Assembly (NCBI GenBank): GCA_030280995.1
Contig: JASXTE010000014.1
Coordinates: forward strand, 21,799,650-21,863,649
Length of the DNA: 64,000 nt
Source of the DNA: Hemileia vastatrix
Lineage: Eukaryota; Basidiomycota; Pucciniomycetes; Pucciniales; Zaghouaniaceae
Direction of reading: 5' to 3'
The notes under the pieces were generated by a model. It saw nothing but the letters and a program-made list of their open reading frames with translations. It was not told the origin of the DNA and searched no databases. The translations under genes and the position numbers were made by a program. Below, piece after piece: positions 894 through 64,000 of the stretch (the first letter of the stretch is position 1; every line of letters starts with the position of its first letter).

Positions 894-1825
894 TGTAGAC
901 AATCCTATAGTACTAGCTATAGGCCTTGTCCAAGTGAGTTGGAGTAAAAACCCAGAGAGAAAAACCCCTGTCCCTTTAGAAAAATAAAGTGATATTTACC
1001 TGCTACAGTAAATTGGTGCCTGTTTCTAAAGCCTCTTTTCCAAAACACTTGACTTCCTGATCAGCCAAGAAAATAGTCTTCAGACTGACTACCAAACCAA
1101 AGAACTGAAATTTGGACCAATGTACACACCAGAGAAAGCAATGATACTTGATGTAGATTGCAAATCCACACCAGAGACAGAAATAATACTTGATATAGCT
1201 TGAAAGACTACACCAGAGAAACCAGTTGCCAAGTTAAGTTAAATGAAGAACTCACCTTGAAACAAACACAGCCCATTGTGGACAAAAAACAGTGAAAACT
1301 GAGTGAGGAACAAGGATATCACCTCAAGATGGTTGTATGATAATTAAAGTTGCCCCAAACTGTCTTATTCACTTTTTACACACAGACCACTATCTAAAAG
1401 CCCATGCACACAAAGTAATTCGGTGTTCTTGAGCACTAAATTGCATAAAACCCCTCTAGAAATGCTTCCCAGCCTTCTACCAATGAGGAGGGTGGTCTGC
1501 CTGATGTCAGGAGGCCCGCCTGAGGCAGCCAGACCACCCTGAAGCCAGAAAACCACCAAAACCCCTAAAAATACTCAAAATATTTAGAAAAATATACTAC
1601 AACTACTAAAAACTTTAAAACACATAATTAGGCTATAAAAACATTGTGAAATAAAATATAGAGAAAAACCAGGGATATCCAATGGTAGTACCTAAATCCC
1701 CGCAGTCTCAATATTCACCAAATAATTCCAGAAAAACACCCAATTATTAAACAATGCCATTTAAGACATATCAAAACAAAGCCAAATAGACCAACAAAGG
1801 GCTCATCCAATGTTGGAATACCACA
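894..1825 (-). repeat. G1-a 5' LTR
   Basis: It starts TGTAGACAAT and ends ACCACA on the plus strand (TGTGGT...TCTACA in element orientation). It aligns throughout with the two LTRs of G1-b but is shorter (932 against about 1091 bp) and clearly diverged. It is inserted in the G2-a 5' LTR: the sequence right after it (CCGTGCAGAAAATT) is the G2 LTR, matching 30559 onward. Confidence 0.85.
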
Positions 1826-2059
1826 CCGTGCAGAAAATTTGACTTACTTAAAATATATATTTTATAATTAAATTAAACCTCTCTATTGTGTCTCTCCTCA
1901 TAAAGTGTTGTTGCACTTCTTTATTTCTTTTTCTTCTTTTCTTAAATTTATAAATTTTAATTACTCTCATTTCCTTGTTATATTCACTTATTCCTATTTC
2001 CTGCTATTCCTTTCTATTTCCTTCTCCTTCTTCTCCTTCTTCTAGATGACCCGCCGACA
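1826..2059 (+). repeat. G2-a 5' LTR, 3' remnant
   Basis: It aligns without gaps to 30559-30792, the last part of the G2-a 3' LTR (constant offset 28733). The proposed end GACA at 2056-2059 pairs with the TGTC start of the 3' LTR at 10257. The upstream part of this LTR was cut off by the G1-a insertion. Confidence 0.75.
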
Positions 2060-2750
2060 ATTGGAGGCCCTTCCAAACAATATGACACCTTTCAACAAAC
2101 AACATAACGCATGGACCACCTATAGCAGAAAAAACAATTTTTTCAGCAACCATGTTTTTAACTTGGGTTTGACCTTTTTGGTTTATAATAGATTAAATAA
2201 TATAAATTTTAAAGTTATTTCTTGATCACTATAGTAAGTAAACCTTTCCCTCTCAATTATATTGTTAAATTTTTTTTGCAATTACAGTGATTTTGGCTTA
2301 ATTGCTGAATCACTGAGTGTAAGTGATCTTTTTTTATTATTAATTTTTTCTTAGTTGACCATAATAGAGCTATATTCTTAGTTCTAGAGGATTATTAAAA
2401 TTTTAATAAATTATTAACCTAATTTTTATTGAAATTTTGTTTTGATTTATTGGTTGACCATAATAGTACTCAGTGCTTAGTCCCAATATTACCAACATAT
2501 TTTTTGATATTAATTATTTTTTAGTTGACTTATTAAACCTTTTTGGTTGGTTTCATAATAATTATTGTTTTTTCTTAATAAAATGATTTGTAATAACATA
2601 TTTTTTGGATTACATTTTTTGTTAATTAATTGATTTTTAAATAAAATTTAAATTTTTTATTCTTTTAAAAATCATTTGATTATTTTTTTTATTTTTAAAA
2701 TACTAATTTGAATCATTAAAATCATTTTGATTTTTTTTTTCACAGTTTTT
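2060..2750 (+). other. G2-a leader, AT-rich, no gene seen
   Basis: This is non-coding sequence between LTR and gag. The primer-binding site should begin at about 2060 (ATTGGAGGCCC), but I cannot assign a tRNA. A GTAAGTG at about 2319 and a pyrimidine-rich CACAG at 2741-2745, 5 bp before the gag ATG, look like splice sites of a leader intron. This is suggestive only. Confidence 0.45.
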
Positions 2751-5276
2751 ATGTCCATTAGTTTGGCAAACAGCATGGATAATCTGCATGTGGATGAAAT
2801 TGAAGTGGATGTTGAAAATGAATCTGTATGTTCCTCAAAATTAACTTGAAAAATTCTTCAGCTGACAAACAACCTTCATTCCAATCAGGATTTAGAAATG
2901 TCAGGAGAAGTGGAAAACCCCCCTCACCAAACTACTCTGAATGAAGTAAAACCTCAGATAAATCAGGAAAATCTTCTAAAGGGTATAAGAATAAAGAAGA
3001 TCCCTCTGACACAACAAATAAACAACCTTTCCAGCCACATAAAAGAACTGAAAGCAGAAAGCATGAAATACAAGGCAAGAGTAGACACACTCTGGAAACA
3101 GATGCAGGAGCTATTAAATCACAAGCAGGTTCAACCTCCTCCTTTCACAGCCTCTCAGTCTCAGCCTCAGCCTCAGCCTCAGCCTCAGCCCCATCAGGTG
3201 CCCAGCTCTTTCACTAAAAATCAAAGCAATCTGAAAATGGAAAAGTGGAAATGGGATTACCTGATGAGCCATTACCAGCAGAATGTTCAGCAGCCAGCAG
3301 CTCAACACCCTGGCCCTACCATGGCACCAACCTACCATCCATATCCTCAGGCCTATCCTTATCAGGGAGGCAAAAGAAAGAAGGCACAGGGGAAATTTCC
3401 TCTTGTGCCATGGTAAGTAATTTGTTTGATAAAAATGTTGGTATTTATAATAACAAATCTTCTTCCACAGGTAATATTGTGGATCATGGTGAAAGAACAG
3501 TTAAACCCATAAAGAGAAAACTTCCTTTGATGAGTAGCCCTAATGATTTAACTAGTAAATTATCATTTGGTGAACCTTTAAAATTTACTTCTACTTTTTA
3601 ATTAATCCTTCTCTTGAAATTAAAAATGACTCTGTTTCCCCTGAAGCCTATACCTTGCTTGAGAAAAATTCTGAGGATATATTGAAAGATACCCTTGATT
3701 TTAATTTTGAAAAACACAAAAATTTGAGAGATGTATTAGTACATGAAAGTGATAGATTGAATAATTTTCACATACATTGTAAAGTGGGTTCTTCTGTACA
3801 AGATACAGATTATTTTAAAATCAAAGAAACTTTTAATATTGTTCTTTGCCAACAAAAGCAAATAAGAAGTGATCATAGAGCTATCTCAGATAAAAATATT
3901 CATCTGCATAAAACTTTAACTGAGTTAAAGCCCCTTATTGAAGAGAATTATTCATTAAAAAGCAAAATTAAGTCTCTACACAATGAGTTGAAAAATCTGA
4001 AAAATGATTTCCAAGCTCTGAGTACCAAACACACAGTTTTTGAGGACAGAATTGTTTTATCCCTTGAAAAAAAAAATGAAAATCTGTCTGAAATTCCTAG
4101 GATAAGAAATGATTTGTCTGACCTAAAGAAAAAAATTTCAGCTTTCACCATCAATCATTATGGTGTGAATTAAAATGCTTCCCATCAGCTGCATACAAAT
4201 AAAGGAAAAGAGCCTGAGAAAAGCTGCTCTTTTCTTCCCCATATTTCAGCCATTAAACAAACTGACAATGGGTCTGTAAAATATTTTGCTACTAGCAAAT
4301 AATCTTTTAATGGTCATGAACCAGATGTTTCTGTAAATAATAAAATTTCTGAACACCTGACTAAACTTCAATAATTATTATTGTTAAATAATTCAAATCA
4401 AAGGATGGACCATCCCAGTAGCCAGAAAAATTGGCCCAAACTGGATCAGTATCCCACTTTTGACGGTCACTCTTCATCTGACTGGCAACACTTTGTTCAG
4501 AGAATTGATAATCTGAAAAGCTCTTATAAATTTCCAGATGAGGAAATTGTCTCTAAATTAATATATTTATTTTCCAATGTAGCTTAAATGTGGTATGAAT
4601 CTGTCTTACTGGAAAATCAACATTATACTTGTAAAGAGTGGAGAACCTTGATTGAAAATCAGTTTGGTGGTTCCAAATTGAGGTTTTCCCAGCAGAGATT
4701 ATACGATAATGCAAAATATGTGTCCTCTCCTGAAAAACCTATTTTTTTCCTTATGAAATTTACAAAAATTCTTAGAGCCATTGATCCTAAAATGGATTAT
4801 GATATTTTGAGAGATAAAATTCTCTGAGAGATTTGATTGTGGAAAGGACTGAGCATGTGAGAAAGAATTCTTCCTTTATTAATATCTGTAATGAAGTCCT
4901 ACTAAATCATAGATATGAATCAAGGAATTATGCTGTTAAATCTTTTCATGACCAGCCAAAGCCTTCCACAAAACTTTCAGACAAAACTGGTAGACCTTCT
5001 TCCCCAGTTGCACCAAAGAAGTATGCAACAAAAAATTGTTTTAAATGTAACAAACAATGGCAGAAAGGACATACTTGTGACAAGAAAATTCATTTTGCTG
5101 AACAAACTGAGGAATCTGAAAATACTCAAGCTGAGCTTGATGATTCCTCCAGTGACTGTAATAGAAATATCTCTTATGACCATGAGTCCTCTCAGGAAGT
5201 TCTAGTTTTAGAAAAGGATATCCAATATTTAGATAATTGGTCTGATAATTGTGATATTGACTTGTCTTCTGCATAA
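2751..5276 (+). pseudogene. G2-a gag, multiply interrupted
   Basis: This is the structural protein of the G2 chromovirus. In order it has a short acidic N-terminus from the ATG at 2751, a stop after CSSKLT, a lysine/glutamate-rich coiled-coil-like part, and a PQ repeat at about 3160-3195. A second coiled-coil-like segment lies at 3655-4173. The capsid-like part follows at 4381-4827 (FDGHSSSDW, KEWRTLIENQFGG). The basic C-terminal part carries CFKCNKQWQKGHTC, the CX2CX7HXC zinc finger of Gypsy Gag proteins (about 5038-5079). Breaks: TGA near 2850, a frame change near 3410, TAA at 4171, 4300 and 4585, and TGA plus a frameshift near 4825. A possible intron (GTAAGT at 3413, CACAG to 3470) does not remove the local stop. 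The copies at 49675 and 56816 share these breaks, so decay preceded duplication. Confidence 0.75.
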
Positions 5277-5789
5277 AATTCTGAAGTTATTAGAGATATT
5301 ACTGACAGTTCCATTTTAATATCACCTTTGAGAGAACCAGTTATCATAAATGGTCAAAATGTTGATGTTATTCTTGACTCTGGTGCTGGAGGAAGTGTAG
5401 TGCCTGAGAGAGCACTGGCTTCTTTGGATAAGGATTATCAATGCAAATTATTACCTATAACATCTGAAAAATGGAGAGGTTATGGTTCTGTTTTATGTCC
5501 CATTGGAAAATACAAAACCACTGTATTCTTTTAATATAACGGTGGTTTTTTCAGAGCTATTTGTGAATTTTTTGTGATGAAAAATGATAATTTAAGCAAT
5601 TGGTTAATCATGGGAAATGAAATTTTAACTATGTTTGGCATTAAGTTGGATCCTGCAAACAATTGTTTTACCTTGGGCATGAATGGGAAAAGAAAATTTA
5701 AAATTTCTTCTTATAAAAATCATTCTGCACCCTTATTAGAATCTTTTCATTCTTTGATCCATTATAAAGGAATAAAATCAGATGAAATG
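5277..5789 (+). pseudogene. G2-a aspartic protease region, broken
   Basis: This is a retropepsin-type protease that would cut the Gag-Pol polyprotein. The active-site motif VILDSGAGGSVV is at about 5365-5400. A TAA at 5275 separates it from gag and another TAA at 5532 splits the domain. The reading then continues in the same frame (MGNEILTMFGIKLDP). The frame runs into a solo LTR at 5790, so the last residues of the open frame (after DEM) are LTR sequence, not protease. Confidence 0.75.
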
Positions 5790-6349
5790 TGTCAGCCTGT
5801 ATATTTCCAGAACTGGGTAAAAATTACTTATAAGTTATTTTAAACACATGAACTATACATGGGAATAATAATTAAGAGTACACAAACAGTATACATAAGT
5901 AAAATTATGATAATATACAAAATATGCCATTATAACACCTTATATACATGCATATATCCACCTTTTATAAGTCTTATGTACTTAATATTAAGTTGGAATA
6001 TTTTAGGGTAATCTTAAGAACTTTAAGTATCAGGCTACATAATTTTTAAGTACACTTAAAGCTGTTATTTTCACTGTTTTATGCAAAAAACAAGAAATGT
6101 GCTTTATTTCACTTAAAAGTTGACTATATGCGCTATAAATTTTATAATATCAAAAATGTGCTTTGAAAGATACATTTTTCTCATTTAGGACTATTGATTT
6201 GGCTATTTAAATGCATAAAAATAACACTTTTCAAATTTGGTGTTTTTTATGCCAGAAATGGCTTCTGTGTACTGGCCACATACTGCCTGCTTTTTTCCCG
6301 TGTGAATAGCTTCATTTTTAGCAAAGTTAGCTTTTTCACACTATAACTA

Positions 6350-6375
6350 CCCCACATTCTACGCCCACTGTGGGG
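6350..6375. repeat. Inverted repeat in the solo LTR
   Basis: CCCCACA and TGTGGGG form a 7-bp stem around 12 bases. It is kept at 58569-58594 and, inverted, at 31130-31155. Confidence 0.7.
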
Positions 6376-6791
6376 AAACACACTAAAATAGGCAACAGGC
6401 GCTTATTTAGTGTCCTAGCTTAATTAATAATGCATTGACCCTCTTTATATACACTAATTTCATTAATAATCTCACTCTTGGTGCCTTATTTCACTACCAC
6501 GCTTAAATTCGCCTAGATTTAGTCAAGGATTTACTCGTGAAAGCGCCTTCCAAGGACTGCATATAGTTACCCCACATCTCACGCTCCATTTTGGGTTTTT
6601 GGGTGGTTTCTCAGTCAATATTGGGTATTTTTGAATGGGAATTTCACGTAGTATAATGTCAGGATTAGCCCCATTATTTCTACAGTGAATCTCCCTTATT
6701 ATTAAGCTATTATTAACCTTAAAATTTCCTCTTTAGTCTTTTATATCATTGTTTAATATGCATATACTCAATCATTGGGGAACTCAGTGTG

Positions 6792-6798
6792 TATAAAA
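6792..6798 (+). promoter_or_regulatory. TATA box of the solo LTR
   Basis: TATAAAA is followed by a GGAGGAGG stretch and a pyrimidine-rich start region, the layout of an LTR promoter (U3/R border). It is conserved at 59011-59017. Confidence 0.6.
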
Positions 6799-7023
6799 GG
6801 AGGAGGTTTTTGGGTCTTGTTTCTACATTCTTTATCATTACAATTTAACCAATATAACCAAATAAATTACAATACATATAAATTAGTACTTTTATAAGAC
6901 TTTTGAATAGTATCTGAATTATAAAATCTCTTTTTCTACCAACTAAAAAGATTGTAAGCCATATATAAAAATAGTGAGAATTATATTACTGAGACCTTTA
7001 ATTTTGATTATATTTTACTACTT

Positions 7024-8660
7024 GTTGGATTTAACTACAGTATTCATTTAGGACCATTAAAATATTCTAGAAAACTGAACATTCAAGCTAGTTCACGTCT
7101 TTTTACTTCACCTCAGCCTAACAAAATAAATGTATTATTTTCTGAAATTGAAACAGCTTCATTTGGTGATCAATTAACTGATGATCAAAAAGATTTAATA
7201 GTAGCCCTAATTACATCTTTACCAATGGCTTTTTCTCATGGTTCCCATGTGTTAGATTGGTTAAAGATGAAATGAAAATTTCTTTATCCTGAAATTCGGG
7301 TGAAATACCTCCTAGCCTAAAGAAAAAACCTTACCCTGCTTCTCCCACAAAGAGAAAAGATATTGAAGATAATATCTCAACTTTATTAAGTATGAATATC
7401 ATTGATAAAGTGGATGTTACTCCCAAATATTGTGTCATCTCTCCAGCTTTAATCTCTTATGGGAAAGATAAAGCTAGACTTTGTGGTGATTTTAGAGCAT
7501 TTAATAATTATACCGTAGATGATATTTACCCCTTACCCAGAATTAGCTATATACATGCTACCATGCAAGGTTCAAAATTCATAAGCTGTCTAGATGGGAA
7601 TAGGGGTTATCATCAAATACCTGATGAAAAGTCTACCAAACTTTTTTTGCTAATTGCAACCCATATAGGAATTTACAAATATGTTAGGATGCCTTTTGGT
7701 CCTAAAAATTCCCCTTCAGTATTCCAAAAAGTAATGGATAATACATTTCATCAGGAAATAATTAAAGGATGTTTAATGGTTTATATTGATCACTTCATAG
7801 TTTTTTTTATAACTTTTGATGAACATATCCAACACTTAAATAGAGTCTTCCAGAAAATGGATCAAATTAACATGAATTTATCCTTAAAAAAGTGTAAATT
7901 TGGGTTTCAATACTTGAAAGTCCTGGATCATGTAGTTTCTGGCTTAAAGATCTGTGTAGACCAAGGAAAAGTTGCTGCTATCCAAAATGTGTCAGCACCA
8001 GCTTCTGTAAAAGAAATACAGGGCTTCTTGTGAATGTGTGGCTACTATAGACAATATATATAAAATTATTAAGTCATAGCCTTACCACTTACCAAACTAG
8101 CAAGAAAAGATGTGGCTTATATATGGAATGAGTATGCTCAAAGAGCTTTTGATACATTAAAAAAGTGTTTAATTTCAGCTCCAATCCTTTCCCTTCCATA
8201 TTTTAATAAGAGTCTTGTTCTTTATACAGATGCAATTTTTATTGGACTTGGAGCTGCTCTACATCAAAAACAAATTATTAATGAAAAAGTTTCAGAAGTA
8301 GTAATTTGTTATATTTCAAGAACCTTAAGAAAAAGTGAATGGAAGTATGGTGCCACTCAATTAGAGTGCTTAGCAGTTGTAGGGGCTTTACAAAAGCTTC
8401 ATTATAATTTAGATGATAAAAAGTTTGAATTAGTTACTGATTTCAGTGCTGTGAAATCCCTCTAAAACTTGAAAACACCAAATAGACATATGTTTAGGTG
8501 GCAACTAGCTGTTCAAGAATACAGATGTAGAATGACTATTATTCACAGGGCTGGAAATTTTTATTCAAATGTTGATATGTTGTCCAGATTACCTCTTCCA
8601 AATGATGTATCTAATCCAGCCTATGTACCTGAAGATGATACAGTATATATACATGGTATA
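7024..8660 (+). pseudogene. G2-a reverse transcriptase and RNase H, broken
   Basis: This is the Ty3/Gypsy RT followed by RNase H, which copy element RNA into DNA. RT motifs run from 7392: PALISYGKDKARLCGDFRA, DGNRGYHQIP, MPFGPKNSPSVF and the catalytic box YIDHFIVFF near 7783. RNase H follows as LYTDAIFIGLGAALHQKQ, near 8220. The catalytic YIDD is YIDH here, so the enzyme would be dead even without stops. Stops include TGA near 7274, TGA at 8031 (GFL-MCGYYRQYI), TAA within YI-NY-VIA, and TAA at 8463. Most are transversions relative to the G3 sequence. G2-c shares them. Confidence 0.85.
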
Positions 8661-10222
8661 TACATTGTTGATATTGAAGAGGAACTGTTACAATTAATTC
8701 TTGATTCATATGATCAAGATTCTGATTTAAGTAAATTGGTTACAATCTTGAATGATCCAAATAATGCTTCTATTCAAGCATTGATAAAAACTCTTCCTCC
8801 AAAGTACCAAAGTGCTTTGAGTAAGGGAAAGTTTTCTGTTGAAGATGGTTATATTTATTACAGGAGAAAACTGACCAATGTAATTGTTATTCCTCCTTCC
8901 ATGAAAGAAACCATCTTAAACATTTGTCATGATGACATTTTAGCAGGACATTTTGATCTTGAGAAAACCATTATCAGAATTAAAAACACTGCTTGGTAGG
9001 CTAATATGTCTGAAGACACTAAATTATATGTTGAATCTTGTGACTCTTGTCAGAAATCTAAAAGATTTACAGGTAAAAGAGCAGGATTTTTGCAACATAA
9101 TGAAGCACCTGATGCTCCTTAGAAAGTAATTAACATTGATTTTGTCACTGGTCTTCCTCTAGCAGGTAAAGACAGTTATAAATCTTGTTGGGTAATAGTG
9201 GATAGATTCACCAAAATGTGCAAATTTATTCCCACCCACAAAGATGTATCCACAAAATAATTAGCTTTCTTATGGTGTTCTTACATGCTTAATATTTTTG
9301 GATTTTTAAAAGCCATTATCTCTGATAGAGACCCAAAATGTACATCTGGATTTTGGACTTCTTTGATGAATATTTGTGGCTGTGAGTTGAAATTGTCTAC
9401 AGCTCACCATCCTCAGACTGATGGTCTAGCTGAAAGAATTATTCAAACTCTGGAAGATATGATTAGAAGGTATTGTGCCTTTGGATTAGAATATATAGAC
9501 AATGACAGATTTACTCATGACTGGGTCACTCTATTGCCTGGTCTTGAATTTGCATATAATAGCACTGTTCATTTTGTCACTGAGAAAAAGCCTTTTAAGC
9601 TTTGGTTAGGTTATTCCCGAAAAACTCCTGCTCAAATTATCAATAATAAATTACCTAAGTTGTAACTACATCCTGGTGTACGATCTTTTATGCAAATGCA
9701 ACAGCTATGCAGAAAACATGCTCAAAGCTGTATTGATAAAGCATTTGAATATGAAAAGAATAGATGGGATAAATCCCATAAAGAATACACATTTATCAAG
9801 GGTGATGAAGTATTGATATCTACTTTCCATTTCAATCCACAAGGTAACAACAAATTAAAAGATCCTTTTATGGGACCATTTTTTGTTAAAAGTATGGCTA
9901 GAGATAATGCAGTAGAAGTTGTAATGTATTCTCCATATGATAGGAAAAATCCTTTTTTTACCATTTCTTTACTTAAACCTTATACTTCCAACTGTGACTT
10001 ATTTCCCAAAAGAATGGGAATACCTAAGAAAAACCCTCAGGAAGTAACAGAAACTGCAGAAATTGATAAAATTATCAATGATAGAATTATCACTTCTGAA
10101 AGAGGTATTGAATAATTATTGACATATAAGAACAAATCATCTGAACATGATGCTTGGATACCTGAAAAAGAAATTTCAAATCTTCCTACTCTGTTAAAAA
10201 AGTATAAAAACAAAAAATATTA
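8661..10222 (+). pseudogene. G2-a integrase with C-terminal chromodomain, broken
   Basis: The integrase inserts element DNA into the chromosome. The zinc-binding HHCC part is visible (CHDDILAGHFD ... CDSCQKSKR, 8925-9062). The catalytic core has D in NIDFVTGLP, D in ISDRDPKCTS (near 9320) and E in TDGLAERIIQT (near 9430). A chromodomain-like tail (AEIDKIINDR ... LLTYKNKSSEHDAWIP) ends at about 10200 and places the element among chromoviruses, which target histone-marked chromatin. Breaks: TAG at 8997 (Trp codon), TAG near 9119, TAA near 9258, TAA near 9663 and TAA near 10115. Confidence 0.85.
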
Positions 10223-10244
10223 GCATTTTTTTAATTTGTTTTTT

Positions 10245-10256
10245 AGAGTGAGGGAG
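10245..10256 (+). other. G2-a polypurine tract
   Basis: AGAGTGAGGGAG lies directly before the TGTC start of the 3' LTR. It resembles the G3 tract at 55627-55638 and would prime plus-strand synthesis. Confidence 0.7.
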
Positions 10257-10550
10257 TGTCATCCAGGCTGTAACAGGAGCCCAGTAAATGTTATGTTAAT
10301 TTATTATACCTGAAAGAGGGCATAAAAATATGCATTTTATGTTTATAAATTAATATTTTATTGCATAATAAAATTATATAATTATCTTATTAAATATAAG
10401 TTAAATAAGTGTTATATTAATCTTATTGTTATATAAATTATTTATACATTTAAATTAAGCATGATATATTTTATATTCTATAAATTATGGCGCATTTTTA
10501 TGTATTTAATGAATATAAATTAATAATTACTTAATTATAAACATATATTA
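10257..10550 (+). repeat. G2-a 3' LTR, segment 1 of 3
   Basis: It starts TGTCATCCAGG after the polypurine tract and is very AT-rich. It is cut at 10550 by the Harbinger element; the LTR continues at 16755. Confidence 0.7.
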
Positions 10551-10581
10551 GGGGGTATCAATGTTCAGGGATCCGCAATTA
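10551..10581. repeat. Harbinger left terminal inverted repeat
   Basis: It begins GGGGGTATCAATGTTCAGGG and matches the complement of 16724-16754 at 30 of 31 positions. TATTA (10546-10550) precedes it. Confidence 0.9.
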
Positions 10582-10967
10582 GGGATCAGGAATTTTTTTT
10601 TCTGGGATCAGACATTATTAATTGAAGAAGATTCTTATCCACTAGCCCCGGGGCTAGTCAATAAGGAATCCAAGATAATACATTATCCCGCCTCTTATAC
10701 CCCAATTTCCATTCCTAATTCCTGATCCCAAACTCATCTCATCCATGATGGATTTGCAAGAAAGTCACATGACTCATAATTGCTGATGCCATCCTTAAGT
10801 CTTTCCTCACTCTATGCTACTTAATTTTGGTGGAGAACACTTAAGTTTTTTTTTATCTACACACCCCAACTGCACATTTGGCGGTGAATTCCCACTTCCC
10901 TCATCACATAACCCTTCCACCGGCAACAATAAAATACCTCTCTACTAGGAAGCTACTTCACTCAACA
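10582..10967. other. Harbinger left subterminal region
   Basis: There is no gene. It holds repeated GGGATCAG motifs in both orientations (about 10575, 10597, 10720), and a perfect 18-bp palindrome at 10641-10658 (ACTAGCCCC with its complement). CTTATACCCCAATT (10694-10707) recurs inverted near the right end at about 16688-16701. These are candidate transposase-binding sites. Confidence 0.6.
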
Positions 10968-12067
10968 ATGAATGCTATTACTTTTCTTTTAGTTCTTTAC
11001 TATAAATCTGACTCTGATTTGGAAGATGCTTTAGCTTATATGTGTTTTCTTTCCAAAAATTGTTACATCATCACCAGGGGGCCAAATCTTTATCATGATT
11101 CCCAATATGATCTGGCCTCCATTCTCAAAATTCTTCATTTAAACTTCACCCAAATTTTTAGAACTTCTCCTGATTCTTTCTTCAAACTTTATCAACTCAT
11201 CTCCAATCATCCTATCTTTCATAACAATTCCCATAACAAAAAGTGTAATCCTGCCATCCAACTTGCTATTGCACTATGTCACTTTGGCTAAAATGGAAAT
11301 GGTGCTGCTGTAAGACATTTGGATAATCTCTTTAACATAGGATATGGTACTGTGATATTATACACCAAGCGCTGTATGATTTCTATCCTTTCCCTCAAGT
11401 CTCAAACACTTGCTTGGCCAACTCCAGAACAGCTACTTGAATCCTCTCAAGTAATGCAAGATGAAGGTTTCCCTGGCTGTGTAGGATTTGTTGATGGCAC
11501 AACTATACCTTTGAGTCAAAAGCCTTCTCATGATGGCAACCATTATTTTGATCGCAAAAAAAGGTTTCTTCAAAATCTTCTCCAATTTCTCATCCTTTAT
11601 AAACTAACTTTTTATCTTCTTTCTAGATACTCTATTGCCGCTCAACTTGTATTCAATGTCAATAAAAATTTATTGCTTTTCATAGTGGCTGCCCTGGCTC
11701 ATGTCATGACTCTTCCGTCTTCCAAAGAATGAGGATTTCTCAAACCCCTGACTCATACTTTGACTAATCTCAGTACCTCCTTGCAGACTCAGAATATGCA
11801 AGTGGGAAGTACATTATACCTGCTTTCCGTGGTGCAACCTTAGAAAATGACCCTAAAACTGAATTTAATTATCACCTTGCCCAATCAAGAGTATGAATTG
11901 ATCATGCTATAGGTATTTTAAAGAGATGATTTTCTAGTCTTCGGGAGCTCAGAATCCAATTTCAAAAAAAATTGGAGATCAAAACTGCAAATCATTGGAT
12001 CATGACTTGCATTATACTCCACAATATCCTAGCTGATTTAAAGGATGATTGGAATGATCTTTATTAA
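10968..12067 (+). pseudogene. PIF/Harbinger (HARBI1-like) transposase, broken
   Basis: This is a DDE-type transposase. I chose the ATG at 10968 because the longer open frame starts at a TTG. The DDE residues are visible: D in GCVGFVDGTTIPL (near 11490) and D in FLADSEYASGKYI (near 11790). The third acidic residue, in the family's RVxxEHAIG block, is Asp here and Glu in the copy at 62438. An intron at 11564-11626 joins KKR to YSIAAQL in frame. Breaks: TAA at 11289-11291, a 1-base frameshift near 11665 after VNKN, TAA at 11766 (Glu in the other copy), and TGA codons near 11894 and 11926 that both copies share. Those shared TGAs fit CGA to TGA changes. Confidence 0.85.
11564..11626 (+). other. 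Intron in the Harbinger transposase
   Basis: It begins GTTTCT, has a CTAAC branch-like site and ends TTTCTAG. Removing these 63 bp restores the conserved KKRYSIAAQL stretch. Confidence 0.75.
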
Positions 12068-13451
12068 GAAGAGGATCCTGAACCAGAACCGGCTCTTTCC
12101 TCCCTTGAATCACAAAACATTCATTCAACCGGCATACGCTCTATCATTATGCCTATTACTCTCCAACATTTCTCTTCACCACCCTTTTAAATTATTTTTT
12201 TTTCACTCCAAAGGTCCTCTTTGTGTACTTCATTCACTTGGTTTGGTATTTTGGTTTTTTGCATATTCATTTTTTTTTTGGAATTTATGGTGAAGATCTT
12301 TTTTTTAAATGGCTCATTGGTTTTCTTTCACCAGCTCAAGATGAAATCGCATATTTTCTGAAATTGCATATTTTGTCAGTGATTTTTTTTCATTCATCCC
12401 TCATATCCTTTTCCTATTCTCCTCCAACATCCCTCAAACAATTTGGTTTCATTCATTTTGTCATCTCATCTCTCCAGGTAAGTCATGTTATTCTTTTTTT
12501 TTTGATTTTTTGATTACTAATTATATTTTTTTTTGTTTTTTTCTGTTTATTTTATTTTTTTTATCTAAATTTTTTTTGTAAGTGGTTATTTTGGATTTCA
12601 ATGGTATAATTAACCTTTTTTTTCTCTCCCTCTTTACTTTCTTTTTTAGCTCCATCACCCTACTCTTCATCCCTCCTTGGCATGGTCATTATCCCCCCTT
12701 TCCCTTATATCAGTTTTTTTTGGCTCCATTTCATTGAAACACATACACTGCACACTCTTTATGCATTTCACTTACTCCATATTCAAGTTCTTCACAATTC
12801 CAACATCAATCCTTCTTACTCTATTTTTCCTACTTTTCAATCAAGGTAAGTCTCATCTCCTTTTTTTCATGCCTATATGATATCTCATTCCTTTTATGAA
12901 AACTTCATACTTAAATATATGTATGACTCTTATCTGGATAACAGTGAACTTATAAAACTCCTTTTGATCTCATCTTCATTACTACTTTTCAACTTTTTGT
13001 AAAATTTTGAAAATCAGACTCGGAATTAGGGTTAGGTTTATTCAAATCTAATGTTCTTTTTACTGAAGATTCTCCTGAAGGCTACCTTTCATTTCCTACA
13101 AACAGATTTGAATTTGATTCAGTGGTTGCTGAGATATTGACCGTTAATGTTGAACCTTTTTTTCCCAATTTAAATTTTTATTTCATTTTTTATGTAACAA
13201 ATTAGAGTTAGGTTTATTTAAATCACATGTCCATTAACTGAAGATTCTACTAAAGCATATCTTTCGTTTCCCACAAACAGGTTTGAATTAGGTTCAGTGG
13301 TTTCTGAGATTTTGACCTTTGAAGTTGAGCCTTTTTTCCAAATTTCACTTGTCTTATTTCACATTTTTATATTGCATATTTAGAGGATAAGGATTCTGAA
13401 ACTCTTATATGATTATTATCTAGGCATTTCAATTATATAGGCATATATTCA
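12068..13451. other. Harbinger internal spacer, no intact gene
   Basis: This is T-rich sequence on the plus strand with several strong splice-like pairs, such as GTAAGTCATG near 12478, TTTTTTAG near 12648 and GTAAGTCTC near 12846. They suggest 5' exons of the TET-like gene downstream, but no reading frame is long enough for me to support one. It is nearly identical to 62843-64000. Confidence 0.5.
13027..13350. repeat. Two-copy tandem repeat of about 178 bp
   Basis: Both copies carry TTAGGTTTATT, ACTGAAGATTCT, TTTCCTACAAACAG/TTTCCCACAAACAG and GATTCAGTGGTTGCTGAGAT-like blocks in the same order. The first copy is also present at the window end (63785 on). Confidence 0.75.
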
Positions 13452-14069
13452 TTGCTCAAGAATATCACTAAATCTCAAAAAAATGAAGATTTTTGCTTAT
13501 GGGACACTCTGCCTTCCTTTAACTCTTTTCTTGCTCTTTGACTCAAAAAGCACTGTAATAAAGCATTTGAAAAAAATCATGAACTTGCAACCAAAGTTGG
13601 AATACCAAATTGGTGTGACCCCAAATGGGAAGATATAAGCCATAAATATCTTTTATTTTCTAATGTTATTATCACTCATTCTGGATTTCACAATAGGATT
13701 TATATTGATAGGAATGATGCCAATTTTCTTACTTTTGGTATATTCTCATATATCAATCCGATAACTGGCCAACCAATACCATCTCCAGCTAAAATCAAAG
13801 AACATGGTTTATATTTTCCAGACCACCGGTGCATCATTGATTTTGGTTTGGGAAATGATATCATCAAAACTATTTGGAATTCTTCTAAGGATAATCATCA
13901 AATGACCAAACCTCCTCCTGGTTTGGAATCCTGTCAATATTTAACACATTTTGGTTGCTCATTTCAAATCAGTCATAAGTTGATTCAAAGAATCAATAAG
14001 GTAAAGAAAGAAGGTAAAGTTATTCGATTTAAAAAAACTATATCTAGATCCAAAAAGTATGGGGATTAG
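13452..14069 (+). pseudogene. TET/JBP-like 2OG-Fe(II) dioxygenase fragment, broken
   Basis: The translated domain runs from LLKNITKSQKNEDF to the stop at 14067-14069. It resembles the fungal Tet-like 2-oxoglutarate/Fe(II) oxygenase family, which oxidises methylated cytosine or related bases. Family-type blocks are NFLTFGIFSYINPITGQPIP, GLYFPDHRCIIDFG and YLTHFGCSFQIS. The likely distal iron-binding His is at 13896-13898 (DNHQMTK). At the expected His-x-Asp pair the sequence reads Tyr-Ile-Asp (13701-13709), so the first ligand appears lost by a single C-to-T change. One TGA sits near 13541, and the N-terminal exons are not recognisable. The recognition is from memory of the family; the residue roles are inference. 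It lies inside the transposon, downstream of and co-oriented with the transposase. Confidence 0.65.
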
Positions 14070-14361
14070 AGTTGTCATTGAAAATTTTATATTTTTTCAT
14101 AAATTTTTAATAAATATTTTTTATATATCAATTTGCTCAAGTAATGTGATGAGCCAGCGACCTTTGGTTGTATAACAGGTAATCATGATAACATTTATTT
14201 GTTTCATGGGGTTTCTCTTGTCTATACCTGTGGAAAGTCACAAACTTTTGTTTCTAGACTTGGTCTGCATTTCGGCTTGAGGAATTGTCATTACTTTAAA
14301 CTAGGGAAATTTAAATATATTAGATATTTATTTAATAATTTATGTAATAATATTAAATTTA
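14070..14361. other. AT-rich spacer, nothing recognised
   Basis: This is spacer between the TET-like fragment and the tandem array. I see no frame or structure worth naming. Confidence 0.5.
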
Positions 14362-14805
14362 GATGACTTCCACCCCTTACTTCAATAAAATTCAGGGGGG
14401 GTAATGCCAAATTTTCAAATCTGACATGTGAAATTGATGACTTAGAAAAATTTTGGTGATACCCACCCCTTGCTTCAATAAAATGCAGGGGAGAGTATTG
14501 CCAATTTTTTAAAACAGATATAGAATTTTTTTGACATGTAAATATTTTGTTGAAATTTTTTTGGTGATACCCGTCCCTTACTTCAATAAAATCCATGGGG
14601 GGTTTTGCCAAAATTTCTTATAAGACTTGTGAAATTCTTGACATGTAAGAATTTTTGGGATACCGGTAAAATGCAGGGGGTGGTAAAGCCAAAGTTTCAT
14701 ATAAGACTTTCAAGATTCATGACATGAAAGAATTTTGGTGATACCCACCCCTTACTTCAAAAAAATCCAGGGGTGGGGGATTGTCAAATTTTCAAAGGGG
14801 ACATG
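14362..14805. repeat. Five-unit tandem array with GC hairpins
   Basis: Units begin near 14371, 14464, 14572, 14663 and 14746 (spacing 83-108 bp). A typical unit has CACCCCTTACTTCAATAAAA followed by a GGGGTGGGG-like run, able to pair as CACCCC/GGGGTG, then a TGCCAAATTTT-type tail and GACATGTAA. The fourth unit lacks the left arm. The open frame on the minus strand here only mirrors the repeat. Confidence 0.8.
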
Positions 14806-15354
14806 AAAATTTTATTTAAAAAAAGAATATTTAACATTAAAATACAAAAATTCAAGTAATGATAGATAGAGTAATGAAATAAAGGAAATTATTGGAAATT
14901 TTATGTACAAATAAATATGAACAGTTGAAGTGTGAGAGAAATAAAACAAACTAGTCATCCAACAATTTCTTTAAAAGTTCAATTTCCTCAACAGATATAT
15001 TAGCTTTAACACATTCTATCAAGAAATCTTTCTTTTTGGAATTTTCTTCATGATCAAACTTATATTTCATCTGCTCTAATAGGTCTTGATGTTTGAGTGT
15101 TTTCTCCTCTTTTTTTGATTTTTCAATACTTAGAGTTAACTCAAACTTCTTCTCCTCCAAATCTTGGGCCCGATCATCCTTCTGTAAAGAGAGCTGGTAC
15201 TTCCTCTCCTCCAAATCTTGGGCCCGATCATCCTTCCATAAAGAGAGCTCGTACTTCATCTCTTCCAAATCTTTTAGCCTATCATCCCTCCTTAAAGAGA
15301 GCTCATATTTCTTCTTTTCAAAGCTTAGAGTCTCTTTAGCGATTTCTACTTGTT

Positions 15355-15429
15355 CTAGAGTGATAATAAAAATTAATATAAAGTGGAAGAAAAGTAGAGT
15401 AAAGTAATAAGAGGTATGGTATCACTTAC
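15355..15429 (-). other. Intron in Harbinger second ORF
   Basis: On the minus strand it starts GTAAGTGAT and ends CACTCTAG, 75 bp. Confidence 0.7.
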
Positions 15430-15628
15430 CAGCATCACGTTTCTCTAAAAATTGTTCCATAGACAAAAAAGGGGTTTGTGATGAAGTATCACTTTTTCGT
15501 CTTCTTTTTGGGTGGAAATTTAGGCTACTTGAAGCCCTACGCTTCTTGTCCAAGGTCATATTCTCCTCATCATCATTGTCACTACCTTCAGACTCAGTTG
15601 ATTGAGGATCCTGGGTTTGTTCATCAGC

Positions 15629-15700
15629 CTTTTATGAAATAAGAAAAAGATAAGTAAATAAAAAATAGAAAATATAAGATAAAAGAAAAAAGAAACAGAC
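15629..15700 (-). other. Probable intron in Harbinger second ORF
   Basis: On the minus strand it starts GTCTGT and ends CATAAAAG, 72 bp. The donor site is weaker than its neighbour's. Confidence 0.5.
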
Positions 15701-16400
15701 CTGAGCTAGATTTGGTTGGGTTAAATCACCAATAAGATCTACAGAAAAGCTATCTTGATATGTCTCATTCAAATGAGGGGAGGCTTGAGTGGAGAAGAGG
15801 ATGGGAAAAGATTTTCTTCAACATCATGTTTGGAGATAGGATCTTCACCATCCAACATGTTTACAGGATTAACATTGGCTTGCTCTCCAAAAATTGCATC
15901 CATCTCTTTAAAGTAAGGACATAAAGTTTCAATTTTATTGTCTATGGATTTTATGCCCTTAGTTATATCGTTGTTGGTAACCCCAAAACCAGTGGAAGAT
16001 GAAAGAGCCTTTGCCTTCTTGTATTTTTCTCAGTAATGCTTGAATTGTTCAGACATCTGTTTAGGCAAAAGATCAATCCTTCCCTTGGTCTTATTCCGTA
16101 ATTCATTTGCCATTAGAAGATAGCCATTAACTTTTGATGCGGGGGGCTGTCCTACTTTAGTGGCATACTCAGTACCAAAACAAGAATCATAGTTAGATTT
16201 GGTTTTCAGCCAGTTGATAAGAATGAGATGGTCATCTTTTTTTAATTGAACGGTCTTTGATTTCTTGGCTTGGCAGGGGAAAGAGGAAGTAGTGGGAATT
16301 GAAGAACAACTGGGTGATGGCTGCCTTTGAGAAGATCTAGGATGACAAGGAATTTTATTATAAATAAAGATGAAAAGGAGCAGAAACAAGCAGATGAGAT

Positions 16401-16723
16401 AGCAAGATGAAAAGGAGCAGAATAAAATAGATGAAATGGGGAGAAATTCTGAGCTGATAGAATGAACAGGATGGGATGATAATGGAAGTACACAGAAAGT
16501 TAGAAGGCATATCCATAGAGTAGTCCAAGATGTGGTTATGGCAGAAAGTAGGTCAAGATGTGGTTATGACAGGAGGTTGCCCAAGATGTGTTTATGAAAA
16601 ATTGAGTAAAAAATGTCGGATAAGAGGTGAACATTGACACGTAAAGTGTCTAATAACCCAATTATTAGCAAAAATAATTGCAGAAGATAATTGGGGTATA
16701 AGGATTTTTATCCGCAATTAATT
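16401..16723. repeat. Harbinger right subterminal region with 28-bp repeats
   Basis: CAAGATGTGGTTATG or a one-base variant occurs three times, starting at about 16526, 16554 and 16582 (period 28). No gene was found. GGGGTATAAGG near 16693 mirrors the left subterminal region. Confidence 0.65.
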
Positions 16724-16754
16724 TAATTGCTGATCCCTGAACATTGATACCCCC
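16724..16754. repeat. Harbinger right terminal inverted repeat
   Basis: It ends CCCTGAACATTGATACCCCC and is followed by TATTA (16755-16759), the same 5 bp that precede the left end. Confidence 0.9.
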
Positions 16755-17447
16755 TATTATAATTATAAGTGTAAAATTAACTTATAATGTAATTATATTA
16801 ATAAATTAAATTTATATTTTAAAAAAATCTTAAATATCTTATTAAACAATAATATTGGGCGCTTTTTTGATTCATAATTGTGTCATCAAAGTATTAAACA
16901 AGTTAAAACACTTTATTAAATAAATTATAAATATATTATTATAAAAATTAGTAATTTTTTTATAATAAGTATTTGTTTTAACTTAAAATAATTGTTACAA
17001 TAATAAGAGTTGTTAAAATAATTAATTACTCATGTTTTATACTAAATTAGTTAATTAAACTAATTTTATGCGTTAAAATAAGTTCCTTTATATGTTTCAC
17101 TTAAAATTGGTTTTTTTAAAAGAGTTATCAGACATGTTTTAAATTAAAATAATTGTTTTATTGTGTCTCAAACTTATTTAATTACTTCCTAATTTTATAG
17201 TAAATGTTTGGGATTAATATGGAAAACTTTAGCCTCTTACTCATGTGTGTTAGTTAATTTGTTCACAGATTCCCTTGCACTTACTCAAATTTTGTTACAT
17301 ATTATTTTTATTATATTTTTAACTGTATATACATTAATGTGGCGCTTCAGAGGGCCCTTTGCCTATATAAAGGCCTTGGGTAACCCCCTGTAGCCTCATC
17401 ACTTATTACTCACATTCTAAGATATTTTAAAATTTTTACAAACACGT
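16755..17447 (+). repeat. G2-a 3' LTR, segment 2 of 3
   Basis: This AT-rich sequence continues the LTR after the Harbinger insertion and ends at the ACGT (17444-17447) that borders G1-b. It includes the TATA region. The assignment rests on position between the two insertions and on the resumed LTR end at 30461-30792. Confidence 0.65.
17364..17370 (+). promoter_or_regulatory. TATA box of the G2 3' LTR
   Basis: TATATAA sits between GGGCCCTTTGCC and AGGCC, about 30 bp before a pyrimidine-rich start region. It is a probable LTR promoter. Confidence 0.55.
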
Positions 17448-22725: not shown

Positions 22726-23763
22726 TCAATATTCTTCATGCCTAGTGCCTCTGGGATAAAACCTCTTCACTTGGTCTGCAGCCACCCCCTTTTTCAAGAC
22801 TGCACCATCCAACTCTTCCAAAACATAAGAACCTCCAGACGCCTGAGATCTGACTTTGTAAGGTCCATTCCATCTGTCAGCAAAAATTTTCCCCCACTGA
22901 CTCTCCAAACTTCTATTATACACCAAAACCAAACAACCAGGTTTCAAGGGATTCCTGAGTCTATGAGCCAACTTCTTGTCCCAGTACTTGACTGATTGAT
23001 TCCTAATCTTCATCATTCTAGAGTATGACTTCTCTTGACATTCCTCTCTACATTCCAACTGTTGCATCCTGGCACAGAGCAATTCTTCTGTTGAGTGCAC
23101 CTCATCCCAATCAATTCCAAGATAAGAGACAGCTTCCAAGTCCACTGGTAGAACAGCTTTCTGACCAAACATTAACTCATAAGGAGAACAGCCAGTTGTC
23201 CTCTTCACAGTGACCCTATCCGCAAATAAAACCAAGGGTAAATAATGCCTCCACTTTTCGGCACTATCTCCACACATCTTCACCAAAGCATTCTTGATAA
23301 CTTGATGGCCTCTTTCAACCATGCCTTCAGCTTCAGGATAATACGGTGTAGCCACTCTAACCCTAGAACCAACACTAGCCACAGCTTCTTTAAATTCGGC
23401 AACAAACTCTGGCCCACCATCAACAGTCACCAACTTCATCAACCCATACCTATAAATCCACTCCTTCTTCAAAAACTCTGCCACATTCTTGGCAGTCAAA
23501 TTAAACAGAGGCACTGCCTCAACCCAACCAGACAAATCATCCCTAGCAACAATCAAGTATTTATACCTGCCTTCTTTAATATGGACAGCATCCAGACTGA
23601 CCCTTCCAAAAAAAGTTGATTCTCCAGTAGCACGGCCCACCTCTTTAGGTTTCAAATGACTTCTTCTTTGACATTCTTCACAAGATCGAACCCAATCCTG
23701 CACAGCCAACTTCATACCTGGCCACCAAAATCTGTCTGCTACTCTTCTATAAGTCTCCCCAAA
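22726..23763 (-). pseudogene. G1-b integrase
   Basis: This is the C-terminal part of pol, in one frame with RT. After a TGA at 23764-23766 (Arg in G1-c), the zinc-binding part continues with SCEECQRRSH. The catalytic triad is visible: D in RVSLDAVHI, D in LVTVDGGPEF and E in EGMVERGHQ. The tail (CLVLVYNRSLESQWGKIFADRWNGPYKV) is the usual Gypsy integrase C-terminal fold, and no chromodomain follows. Apart from the upstream stops, this reading frame is intact over 329 codons. Confidence 0.9.
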
Positions 23764-23766
23764 GCC

Positions 23767-25974
23767 TCAATGACCAAGGTCTTCATGCAAGGACTTCAAC
23801 ACAAGTTCTTGACCCTTCTTCTGAGTCACCACCACTTGAGGATTAGGATGCCTTCTCCTCATCAACCTTCTTCCTGACACATAAAATCCATGACTCTTCT
23901 TCTTGATTGCTAACCAAGTATCATCATCACAACTATCTGGCCTCTCCAAGGTCAACAGATATTCCACCAAAATAAAATAAAGGCCAGACTGACCCCAGGT
24001 CTCATCTTCAAAATCCAACAACACCACATCCAAGGGTACAATTCTGTCATCAAAATCACCAGTATGAACATGAGCCAATGGAGCAGCCCAACCAGGACAC
24101 CAATACTTAAATTTTGGCAAGTCCTTCTCTTTCCACTGAACCTTGTGAGAATCCAGTTCACTAACAAAAACACCCTTTTCCAATTTTGAGCTGTCCCAAA
24201 CAACAACTCCATCTTCATCAACAAAAACATCCTGATCACCAGAATCAAGATCAGATCCAGCCAGTTTAGCCTCTTGGTGGAGGTCAGAAAAATCTTCAGC
24301 ACCCTTTGTGCTGGCCCTAACCACTGGAACATCCTCATCAAACTCTTCAGCCTCAGAATCTTCATCTGTAGGTGGCCTCCTTGATAATCCATCAGGCATA
24401 GTAAAAGTTTTACCTGGTTTGTGTACCAGGTCAAAAGAAAAATGTTGAATAAATGCCACCCACCTAGTTATTGGGGAATTTGGAAGACTAGGTGTATTGA
24501 TCATCTGAACCAAAGATTTTGCATCCACCTGCAGCTCAAAATGCTGCCCCCACAAAACCGTCTGTAGCTTCTTTAAAATTTTAGCTACGCCACACAATTC
24601 CAACTTAGGTTGAGAATACCTAGATTCCACCTCATTAAACACCACAGACTCATATCTTACTGGCCTGACCCTCCCAGTCTTATCCTCCTGAGACAAAACA
24701 ACACCAGCAGCAATATAACTTGAGTCCACTTCCAGATAAATTTTTCCAGCACCAACACCATAATCCAACTTGTGAAGAACAATATCTTTACCAACAACCT
24801 TTTTCAACTTCTGAAAAGCTTCTTCACACTCTTCAGTCCATTCCCAATCTGCATCTTTTCTGGTCAACCTCCTTAAAGGTGAAGCCAACAAAGAAAAATC
24901 CTTAATAAAAATCCTGACATATACACATACACCCAAAAATCCCCTGACTTCAGTAGTATTTTTAGGCCTTGGCAATGACTGAATTTTATTAATCTTCTTC
25001 TTCGCCATAATCCTTCCCTCTTTACTTACCACATGACCCAGAATTTCCGAAGCAGGAACACAAAAACAGAATTTTGACCCTGAAATGGTCAAACCAGCCT
25101 CTTCAATCCTAAACATCACTCTCTCTAGAGTTATTGCATATTCCCACACAAACCTCCTTATGCCAGGGTTCTCCACTAACACCTCATTACCATAATCAGT
25201 GGATGGTCGTTTAATTCCACTATCATCAATAAAATTACCAGCATGAGTAGGAACCTCATCCTGCAAGATCTAAGCCATCTGTGCTTGATAAACTGCCACT
25301 GAATCAGTTGCTCCTTGAGGCAACCTAGTGAGCTGAAATCTTGCCAAAGGAGTCTCAAAAGTTTTGAGAGGCCTTGAATCCGTATGGAGTTCCCTCTCAT
25401 CATAACCACCCATAATATCCACCAAACCATAACACACCCTTCCAGCAAAAGCTTCAACAAAATCCTCTGCACTTGGTGGCATACCAGCATCCTTGATAGT
25501 GACTCTATTCAAGGCTCTAAGATCATGCACCACCGGCAACTTTCCATTCTGCTTCTTTACACAGAAAACCGGACTAGAGTAGCTGGAAGTCGATTGTTCA
25601 TATAACCCAGTCCTGACTCTTTCCCTAACAATCTCTACAAAATCCTCTCTAATAGCGGCAGGAATCGGAATAGGTTTGATTTGCCAAGGTTCATGACAAA
25701 CCACAGGAATCAAGTAAGGTTCCCCATAAGAGTGCTTCAATACACCCCTTTCCTCCTCAGCAAATGCCACAACTTTTTCACTTAGCACAATAATGTGCAA
25801 CAACAACTTCTTTTCTTCTTCAGACAACCACCCATCAGGACCAAAATTAACAACTTTCAACCTTTCCACGGTCACCCTAGCCGTCTCTAAAAATTCTGGA
25901 GGATTCTTCACCAAAGGAGTACAGTACAGATCTCTTGACAAAGGAGGTCTCTTCAAGGGCGGATTCAAGCCCAC
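23767..25974 (-). pseudogene. G1-b reverse transcriptase and RNase H, nearly intact
   Basis: This is the Ty3/Gypsy RT and RNase H. RT motifs include FCVKKQNGKLPVVHDLRALN, DIMGGYDERELH, FQLTRLPQGATDS and the catalytic FIDD (about 25222-25233), a known variant of YxDD. RNase H follows as YLEVDSSYIAAGVVLSQED and LELCGV. A linker with an acidic stretch leads to the integrase zinc domain. The only stop inside is TAG at 25267-25269, where G1-c has Trp, so a G-to-A change. The stop at the downstream end (23764) fits CGA to TGA. Two transition mutations thus separate this pol from an open frame. Confidence 0.9.
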
Positions 25975-26025
25975 AGGCCTAATCTTCTGCGCTACCTTCT
26001 TATACTTTTCCGCTCCACCTTCAAC

Positions 26026-26817
26026 TTAAGGGATCTTCAAGAAATCTTCACCACCAGACCTGGAACAAAAACCAAGGAGCTCCCCATTCATCACATGTGT
26101 GGCCAAGGTAATGTTTTTGAAAGGTGTAGAAGAAACCCTAGCGGTGCACAATTGGTAGGACTTACTTTTACACCCCAATCTCACCACTCCAAAACTTTTC
26201 CGCAATTCTACATCTTCATCCTCACTTCCAACTTCCAAATCTTCAAATCTTGATTCATCTTCTGAATCACATCTTCTAAAATTGTGCAGTTTATCCTCAT
26301 GCTGGAGGCTCAAAAATCGATCTTGATGATCTTCTCTCTTCATAATTTTCTGCAGTTTAACCTCATGCTGGAGGCCCAAAAATAGATCTTGATGATCTTC
26401 ACAAAAATATTTTGCATCTACTTTCTTCATCATCTTCAGATTTTTTTCTTGATTTTCATGAATTATTTTGAAATTTTTATCTTCTTTTTTTGAGTTTTCT
26501 TCTGACCTACAAAAATAACCAGGGGTTTCCCCAATGCTCACAGGTGTGGCCCAGGTAATGTTTTTGAAAGGTGTAGAAGAAACCCTAGCGGTGCACAACT
26601 GGGAGGACTTACATTTAGACCCCAATCTCACCGCCCCAAAACTTTTCCGCATATCTTTCAATAAAGATATATAACCAATCTTCTTCCTTGAACTTGAATT
26701 AAAAATAATTAAAAATCTTGAGAGAGAACAGAGAATTGATAAAAAACTTGATGAATACTTGCAGAGAAGAGAGACATTAAAAAGAGAAAGTTGAAAATCC
26801 ACTTGGTGTATCTCCAA
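26026..26817 (-). pseudogene. G1-b protease-RT linker with duplicated module and 22-aa repeats
   Basis: It is in the same frame as pol and separated from it by a TAA at 26026 (Gln in G1-c). A module of about 50 residues occurs twice: RKSFGAVRLGSKCKSSQLCT and, downstream, RKSFGVVRLGCKSKSYQLCT, each followed by a RVSSTPFKNIT block. Between them lie two units of a 22-residue repeat (HQDLFLGLQHEVKLQKIMKR; HQDRFLSLQHEDKLHNFRR). G1-c has five units there. I know no function for this linker; its Lys/Glu pattern suggests a helical spacer. Confidence 0.7.
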
Positions 26818-26890
26818 GGGAGCTGACCTACTACAACCTGGATTTCCTCATCTTGGGGAGAGGTTGTAGCACTAGGGTGATCAGCCCTCA

Positions 26891-29277: not shown

Positions 29278-29347
29278 TCTTCCAGTCCAAAACACCAAAA
29301 AGAGCCAACCAAAGAAAACAGAGATTCCAAAGAACTAGCAAGTTCTA

Positions 29348-33023: not shown

Positions 33024-33028
33024 GAAAT

Positions 33029-38382: not shown

Positions 38383-38387
38383 GAAAT

Positions 38388-59213: not shown

Positions 59214-59223
59214 CCTTTAATTT

Positions 59224-62437: not shown

Positions 62438-62842
62438 CAAAAATTTATTGCTTTTCATAGTGGCTGCCCTGGCTCATGTCATGACTCTTCCGTCTTCCAA
62501 AGAATGAGGATTTCTCAAACCCCTGACTCATACTTTGACGAATCTCAGTACCTCCTTGCAGACTCAGCATATGCAAGTGGGAAGTACATTATACCTGCTT
62601 TCCGTGGTGCAACCTTAGAAAATGACCCCAAAACTAAATTTAATTATCAACTTGCCCAATCAAGAGTATGAATTGAACATGCTATAGGTATTTTAAAGGG
62701 ATGATTTTCTAGTCTTCGGGAGCTCAGAATCCAATTTCAAAAAAAATTGGAGATCAAAACTGCAAATCATTGGATCATGACTTGCATTATACTCCACAAT
62801 ATCCTAGCTGATTTAGAGGATGAGTGGAATGTTCTTTATTAA
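62438..62842 (+). pseudogene. Harbinger transposase C-terminal part
   Basis: It carries the FDESQYLLADSAYASGKYI block with the second catalytic Asp, and IEHAIGILKG with the third acidic residue as Glu, closer to the family norm than the first copy. It keeps the same two TGA codons around that block. It ends with TAA at 62840. Confidence 0.8.
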
Positions 62843-63784
62843 GAAGAGGATCCTGAACCAGCACCGGCTCTTTCCTCCCTTGAATCACAAAACATTCATT
62901 CAACCAGCATACGCTCGATCATTATGCCTATTACTCTCCAACATTTCTCTTCACCACCCTTTTAAATTATTTTTTTTTTCACTCCAAATGTCCTCTTTGT
63001 GTACTTCATTCACTTGGTTTGGTATTTTGGTTTGTTGAATATTCATTTTTTTTATGGAATTTATGGTGAAGATCTTTTTTTTGAATGGCTCATTGGTTTT
63101 CTTTCACCAGCTCAAGATGAAATTGCATATTTTGTCAGTGATTTTTTTTCATTCATCCCTCATATCCTTTTCCTATTCTCCTCCAAAATCCCTCAAACAA
63201 TTTGGTTTCATTCATTTTGTCATCTCATCTCTCCAGGTAAGTCATGTTATTCTTTTTTTTTGATTTTTTGATTACTAATTATAATTTTTTTGTTTTTTTC
63301 TGTTTATTTTATTTTTTTTATCTAAATTTTTTTTGTAAGTGGTTATTTTTGATTTCACTGGTATAATTAACCTTTTTTTTCTCTCCCTCTTTACTTTCTT
63401 TTTTAGCTCCATCACCCTACTCTTCATCCCTCCTTGGCATGGTCATTATCCCCCCTTTCCCTTATTTCAGTTTTTTTTGGCTCCATTTCATTGAAACACA
63501 TACATTGCACATTTTTTATGCATTTCACTTACTCCATATTCAATTTCCCCACAATTCCAACATCAATCTTTCTCACTCTATTTTTCCTACTTTTCAATCA
63601 AGGTAAGTCTCATCTCCTTTTTTTCATGCCTATATTATATCTCATTCCTTTTATGAAAACTTCATACTTAAATATATGTATGACTCTTATCTGGATAACA
63701 GTGAACTTATAAAACTCCTTTTGATCTCATCTTCATTACCACTTTTCAAGTTTTTGTAAAATTTTGAAAATCAGACTCGGAATT
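62843..63784. other. Harbinger internal spacer, second copy
   Basis: It is a near-copy of 12068-13026 with the same splice-like sites. No intact gene was seen. Confidence 0.5.
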
Positions 63785-64000
63785 AGGGTTATGTTTATTC
63801 AAATCTAATGTTCTTTTTACTGAAGATTCTCCTGAAGGCTACCTTTCATTTCCTACAAACAGATTTGAATTTGATTCAGTGGTTGCTGAGATATTGACCG
63901 TTAAAGTTGAGCCTTTTTTTCCCAATTTAAATTTTTATTTCATTTTTTTATGTAACAAATCAGGGTTAGGTTTATTTAAATCACATGTACTTTAACTGAA

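Follow-up and report, generated by a model that had tools for sequence, protein, structure and literature searches.

A 6,204-bp element within the 64,000-nucleotide stretch of Hemileia vastatrix DNA analyzed here (the window) is very probably a dead copy of a TET-carrying PIF/Harbinger DNA transposon, and by its features it most closely resembles the PHISTA lineage of rust fungi. The first-pass annotation had proposed a relic of a Tet-like oxygenase inside a PIF/Harbinger-type transposon, lying between the transposase and a third open reading frame and enclosed by 31-bp inverted repeats. This arrangement was confirmed by a match to the Pfam family PF20515, by the terminal inverted repeats (TIRs), and by the homologs of the transposase. 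The element is a further, decayed example of a kind published in December 2025 rather than a new kind. Coordinates of the relevant features are provided in Table 1.

Table 1. Features of the element and of its partial second copy, in window coordinates.
Feature	Position	Strand	Basis
Whole PHISTA-like PIF/Harbinger element, 6,204 bp	10551..16754		31-bp TIRs and flanking TA
Left flanking TA, probable target-site duplication	10549..10550		sequence
Left terminal inverted repeat, 31 bp	10551..10581	+	30/31 match to right TIR
Five GGGATCAGNAATTA-like motifs near left end, candidate transposase-binding sites	10568..10790		motif matches
PIF/Harbinger DDE transposase pseudogene	10938..12190	+	homologs, tblastn; 3' end (12067 or 12190) a guess
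Tet-like 2OG-Fe(II) oxygenase pseudogene	13440..14069	+	PF20515 match and homologs
Third gene, in pieces; limits tentative	14951..16563	-	open reading pieces
Right terminal inverted repeat, 31 bp	16724..16754	-	30/31 match to left TIR
Right flanking TA, probable target-site duplication	16755..16756		sequence
Second, partial element copy, equivalent to bases 11664-13242, 96.1% identical	62439..64000	+	self-BLAST, alignment, tblastn

The 23 outermost bases of the two TIRs are identical (10551-10573 on the plus strand and 16732-16754 on the minus strand). A search of the window with this 23-base end, allowing up to three mismatches, returned only these two matches, with none expected on the basis of 100 shuffles. 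The dinucleotide TA that borders the element at both ends is probably a target-site duplication. The letters of this AT-rich flank would equally allow termini that are longer by one base, with a 3-bp duplication of ATT. The usual target duplication of Harbinger elements is TWA, however, which ATT does not fit, and thus the TA reading is preferred. The GGGATCAGNAATTA-like motif, present five times near the left end, also occurs once in the right TIR. When up to two mismatches are allowed, the window contains seven matches to GGGATCAGNAATTA, six of which lie at the element ends; 3.06 are expected and two of 100 shuffles reach seven, the motif having been picked after the ends had been viewed. 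These motifs are possible binding sites for the transposase.

The open reading frame at 13542-14066 on the plus strand, which falls inside the element, has a match to PF20515 (2OG-FeII_Oxy_6, Tet-like) that scores 65.3 bits (E=1e-17; the cut-off is 27 bits) and covers positions 85-210 of the 211 in the profile. The family membership read at first from the letters was accordingly upheld by the HMM comparison, and a chance similarity to the Tet-like family is ruled out by the E-value. Five of the 21 candidates from a protein search are homologs at E<=0.001 (E-values from 7.8e-39 to 9.8e-25), with identities to the window of 42-43%; the two that are named are from Puccinia triticina and P. sorghi. 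When the five were compared with the whole window by tblastn (E<=0.001), a single place was matched. Four of them align from 13434-13497 to 14057-14063 in one frame and without a frameshift, crossing the one in-frame stop that interrupts the oxygenase reading frame (13539-13541). The fifth is a partial protein with a match that begins at 13659.

The iron triad of the TET/JBP type consists of HxD and a downstream histidine (PMC12730594). In the window the first ligand position is occupied by a tyrosine codon (13701-13703), and all five homologs have a histidine there. This bears out the loss of the first ligand, tyrosine for histidine, that had been suspected in the first-pass annotation. Read by column in alignment A1, the triad is YxD...H instead of HxD...H; the aspartate, two residues after the first ligand, and the distal histidine are kept in all six rows. 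An AlphaFold2 (AF2) model of the oxygenase piece, built from six sequences, had a mean pLDDT of 40.0 and was too poor to be informative, and a profile search of the PDB returned one chance match and nothing else. Scans of virus and prokaryote contigs with alignment A1 confirmed no relative among 40 and 45 pattern matches, respectively.

It is highly improbable that the gene encoded some other 2OG-Fe(II) oxygenase that does not act on DNA, or that the tyrosine-substituted protein has a non-catalytic role. The Tet-like assignment does come from sequence only, and Kojima (PMC12730594), as far as the available text goes, states that the function of transposon-encoded TETs lacks experimental validation and allows other activities for the type. 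With its reading frame interrupted by a stop and the transposase decayed, however, this copy is unlikely to have been selected for a non-catalytic role. The gene is best taken as the relic of a Tet-like oxygenase.

The carrier transposase is, on the evidence of its sequence, a PIF/Harbinger-type DDE enzyme. A protein search with the open reading frame at 11292-11729 gave 63 homologs among 102 candidates, the top one being a P. striiformis "DDE Tnp4" protein with 56% identity over 91%. The PF13359 domain is precomputed for nine of the 63. With Pfam, the transposase pieces gave nothing above the cut-off, one piece matching DDE_Tnp_4 at E=0.048, and a PDB search by sequence with a transposase piece returned no match. 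By tblastn the homologs span 10938-11803, and a single protein, P0068, reaches 11923. Alignment A2, of 10 chosen sequences, also bears on the DDE assignment. The tree was calculated with 57 of 64 sequences, the other seven being left out for covering less than 75% of the 90 columns. In it the window belongs to a 32-member group (support 0.81) in which three P. striiformis proteins are also found, and it adjoins protein P0021 (support 0.75). The named match from Austropuccinia psidii (47%) is more distant than a P. striiformis match (73%).

The transposase reading frame is broken repeatedly. Of the 63 homologs, 54 align across its stop at 11289-11291, five across the one at 11765-11767, and only P0068 across the one at 11894-11896; another stop, at 11927-11929, falls immediately past the reach of any significant homolog match. 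The frame changes near 11666-11690, and a 63-nt GT-AG intron was read by eye at 11564-11626. No Pfam family was matched by the pieces at 11768-11893 and 11930-12064. The last part of the gene, which we assign to the transposase by its motifs, has little homology support. Since the transposase contains several stops and the oxygenase contains a stop and has lost an iron ligand, this copy of the element is judged to be beyond function.

The third gene is read as open pieces, two of which share a frame and are separated by a stop at 16030-16032. Its last piece has, by eye, the look of a charged coiled coil. The first-pass annotation had described a Myb-like gene at this place; a minus-strand gene downstream of the oxygenase is indeed present, but its Myb identity received no support from Pfam or the PDB. 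The third-gene pieces gave no Pfam match above the cut-off, and a protein search with residues 95-177 of the first piece yielded three candidates, none significant. The 17 PDB matches to a third-gene piece all had E-values of 0.4 or worse, were to M1-type aminopeptidases, and are attributed to chance. An AF2 model of the 86-residue piece at 16033-16290 alone displays four helices with a mean pLDDT of 49.9, which is of low confidence. That the gene encoded a very divergent trihelix/Myb-like DNA-binding partner is a doubtful proposal, with a probability well under even. If it were correct, the element would join the layouts of the Nuwa-like elements (transposase and Myb) and of PHISTA (transposase and TET), and it would contradict the statement in PMC12730594, in the text available, that the third proteins of TET-carrying Harbinger elements are without Myb/SANT.

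The partial second copy exits the window ∼200 bases before the position of the TET gene and is uninformative with respect to cargo. It lacks the equivalent of 10220-11663 (∼1.4 kb) and hence the left end. At its junction, the upstream flank passes straight into the middle of the transposase (10219/11664 versus 62437/62439). This flank is common to both copies (4597-10219 and 56816-62437, 98.1% identity); the second copy is therefore part of a segmental duplication, and an independent insertion is ruled out. Of the five stop codons in the frame that starts from 11666, the second copy shares four, including 11894-11896 (62669-62671 in that copy), and lacks the one at 11765-11767. In the second copy, too, the tblastn match of P0068 (62438-62701) runs across the shared stop. 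Because a transposase stop that is supported by homology is common to both copies, the element had probably died by the time it was duplicated, as judged from these alignments. Gene conversion could also account for the shared stops. Note that 17 of the 41 substitutions between the copies are C-T or A-G, with no excess of transitions, and thus recent decay by methylation is not visible there.

An origin in which the TET-like gene was captured once, or arrived as a nested insertion from another TET transposon or a host gene, and was never a regular part of the family, would be consistent with what the window contains, where no independent insertion was seen and the one further copy ends short of the TET position. 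It would also be consistent with an inverted pair at 13456-13484 and 14525-14553 (29 nt, 76% complementary) that spans most of the gene. This pair, however, is weak and AT-rich, starts inside the gene, and is one of many of the same grade (the best 25 of 112), and PMC12730594, in the available text, reports fifteen Harbinger families from six rust species that have TET among their components. Such a one-off capture is accordingly regarded as improbable, and a TET-carrying transposon family remains the preferred reading.

Two large direct duplications, at 98-99% identity and with their members ∼47-52 kb apart, occur in the window: 1603-5977/48535-52901 and the flank 4597-10219/56816-62437 noted above. 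The stretches 1603-5977 and 4597-10219 have, by eye, a Gypsy-type look, and the truncated Harbinger directly follows the duplicate that starts at 56816. Gypsy-type frames on the minus strand, including ones of 346 and 500 amino acids, were also recognized by eye at 22726-29334, and a diverged copy of this region (∼86%) lies within 41296-48534. Upstream of the TET gene, at 13024-13370, is a tandem pair of ∼170-bp units that are 81.5% alike; the second copy of the element extends through the first of these and into the second. A 44-nt reference unit recurs as five diverged copies, spaced 81-107 apart, in the interval that separates the TET gene from the third gene (14358-14815).

The GC content of the window is 35.3%. 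The observed/expected ratio for CpG is 0.19 for the window as a whole, 0.22 for the element, and 0.06-0.23 in 14 of the 16 bins of 4 kb. CpG loss characterizes most of the window and is not confined to the element. Among the NCG words of the window TCG is the scarcest, at 0.66 of expectation. The low CpG fits with CpG methylation and its decay. In Austropuccinia psidii, a GC content of 33.8%, CpG loss in transposons, and CpG methylation decay are reported in the available parts of PMC8063080 and PMC12774611. The stretch at 32001-40000 differs from the other 14 bins, with observed/expected ratios of 0.49-0.55. It contains Copia-type frames at 34248-38279 (by eye) and a 117-bp direct repeat at 33029-33145/38267-38383 (98.3%), and is perhaps a young insertion.

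In the working ancestor of this element, a DDE transposase that bound both the 31-bp ends and the subterminal motifs would have inserted the element at TA sites. Oxidation of 5-methylcytosine on the element by the TET-like enzyme may have opposed CpG methylation by the host, and the third gene would have encoded an accessory protein. The duplication of TA, the substrate of the enzyme, and its anti-silencing role are points that we infer. What was sighted here from raw sequence is a transposon with a gene of a DNA-demethylase family amid strong CpG loss. Kojima proposes that TET cargo helps transposons to escape silencing based on methylation (PMC12730594, in the text available). The element fits this published view, in which transposons counter methylation; as a dead copy it adds no test of function.

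By title and abstract, the only paper on TET-carrying Harbinger elements in the literature searched is that of Kojima (Biology 2025, 14:1741; PMC12730594), which appeared in December 2025. In the portion of the text available, it describes seven transposon lineages of rusts with one TET/JBP type. The Harbinger families with TET carry TA duplications, and their six host species are five of Puccinia together with A. psidii; PHISTA is the name given to the Puccinia lineage. A 2026 review cites the finding as yet to be characterized (PMC13297926, in the part available). Because TET-carrying Harbinger elements had thus already been described, the novelty of such a carrier falls, and the view taken at first, that KDZ transposons are the known link and hence that this carrier is new, is not supported.

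Three published systems invite comparison, each as described in the available text of PMC12730594. The Kyakuja-Dileera-Zisupton elements with TET/JBP genes likewise have a Tet-like cargo in a fungal DNA transposon, and in the rusts the TET of Dileera is of the same PU type. Their transposase, however, is of another superfamily, and Kyakuja has the AG type and occurs in Agaricomycetes. The Nuwa lineage, with 3-bp duplications and a transposase accompanied by a Myb/SANT protein, shares with our element the PIF/Harbinger superfamily and a second gene other than TET. In contrast to Nuwa, the element described here has a TET gene, preferred TA flanks, and a third gene for which Myb/SANT support is absent. 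The comparison with PHISTA was made by described features rather than by sequences, and gene order does not appear in that available text. The copy in the window differs from PHISTA in being decayed; the two are alike in having a Harbinger-type DDE transposase closest to rust proteins, a Tet-like gene, a third gene, and flanking TA.
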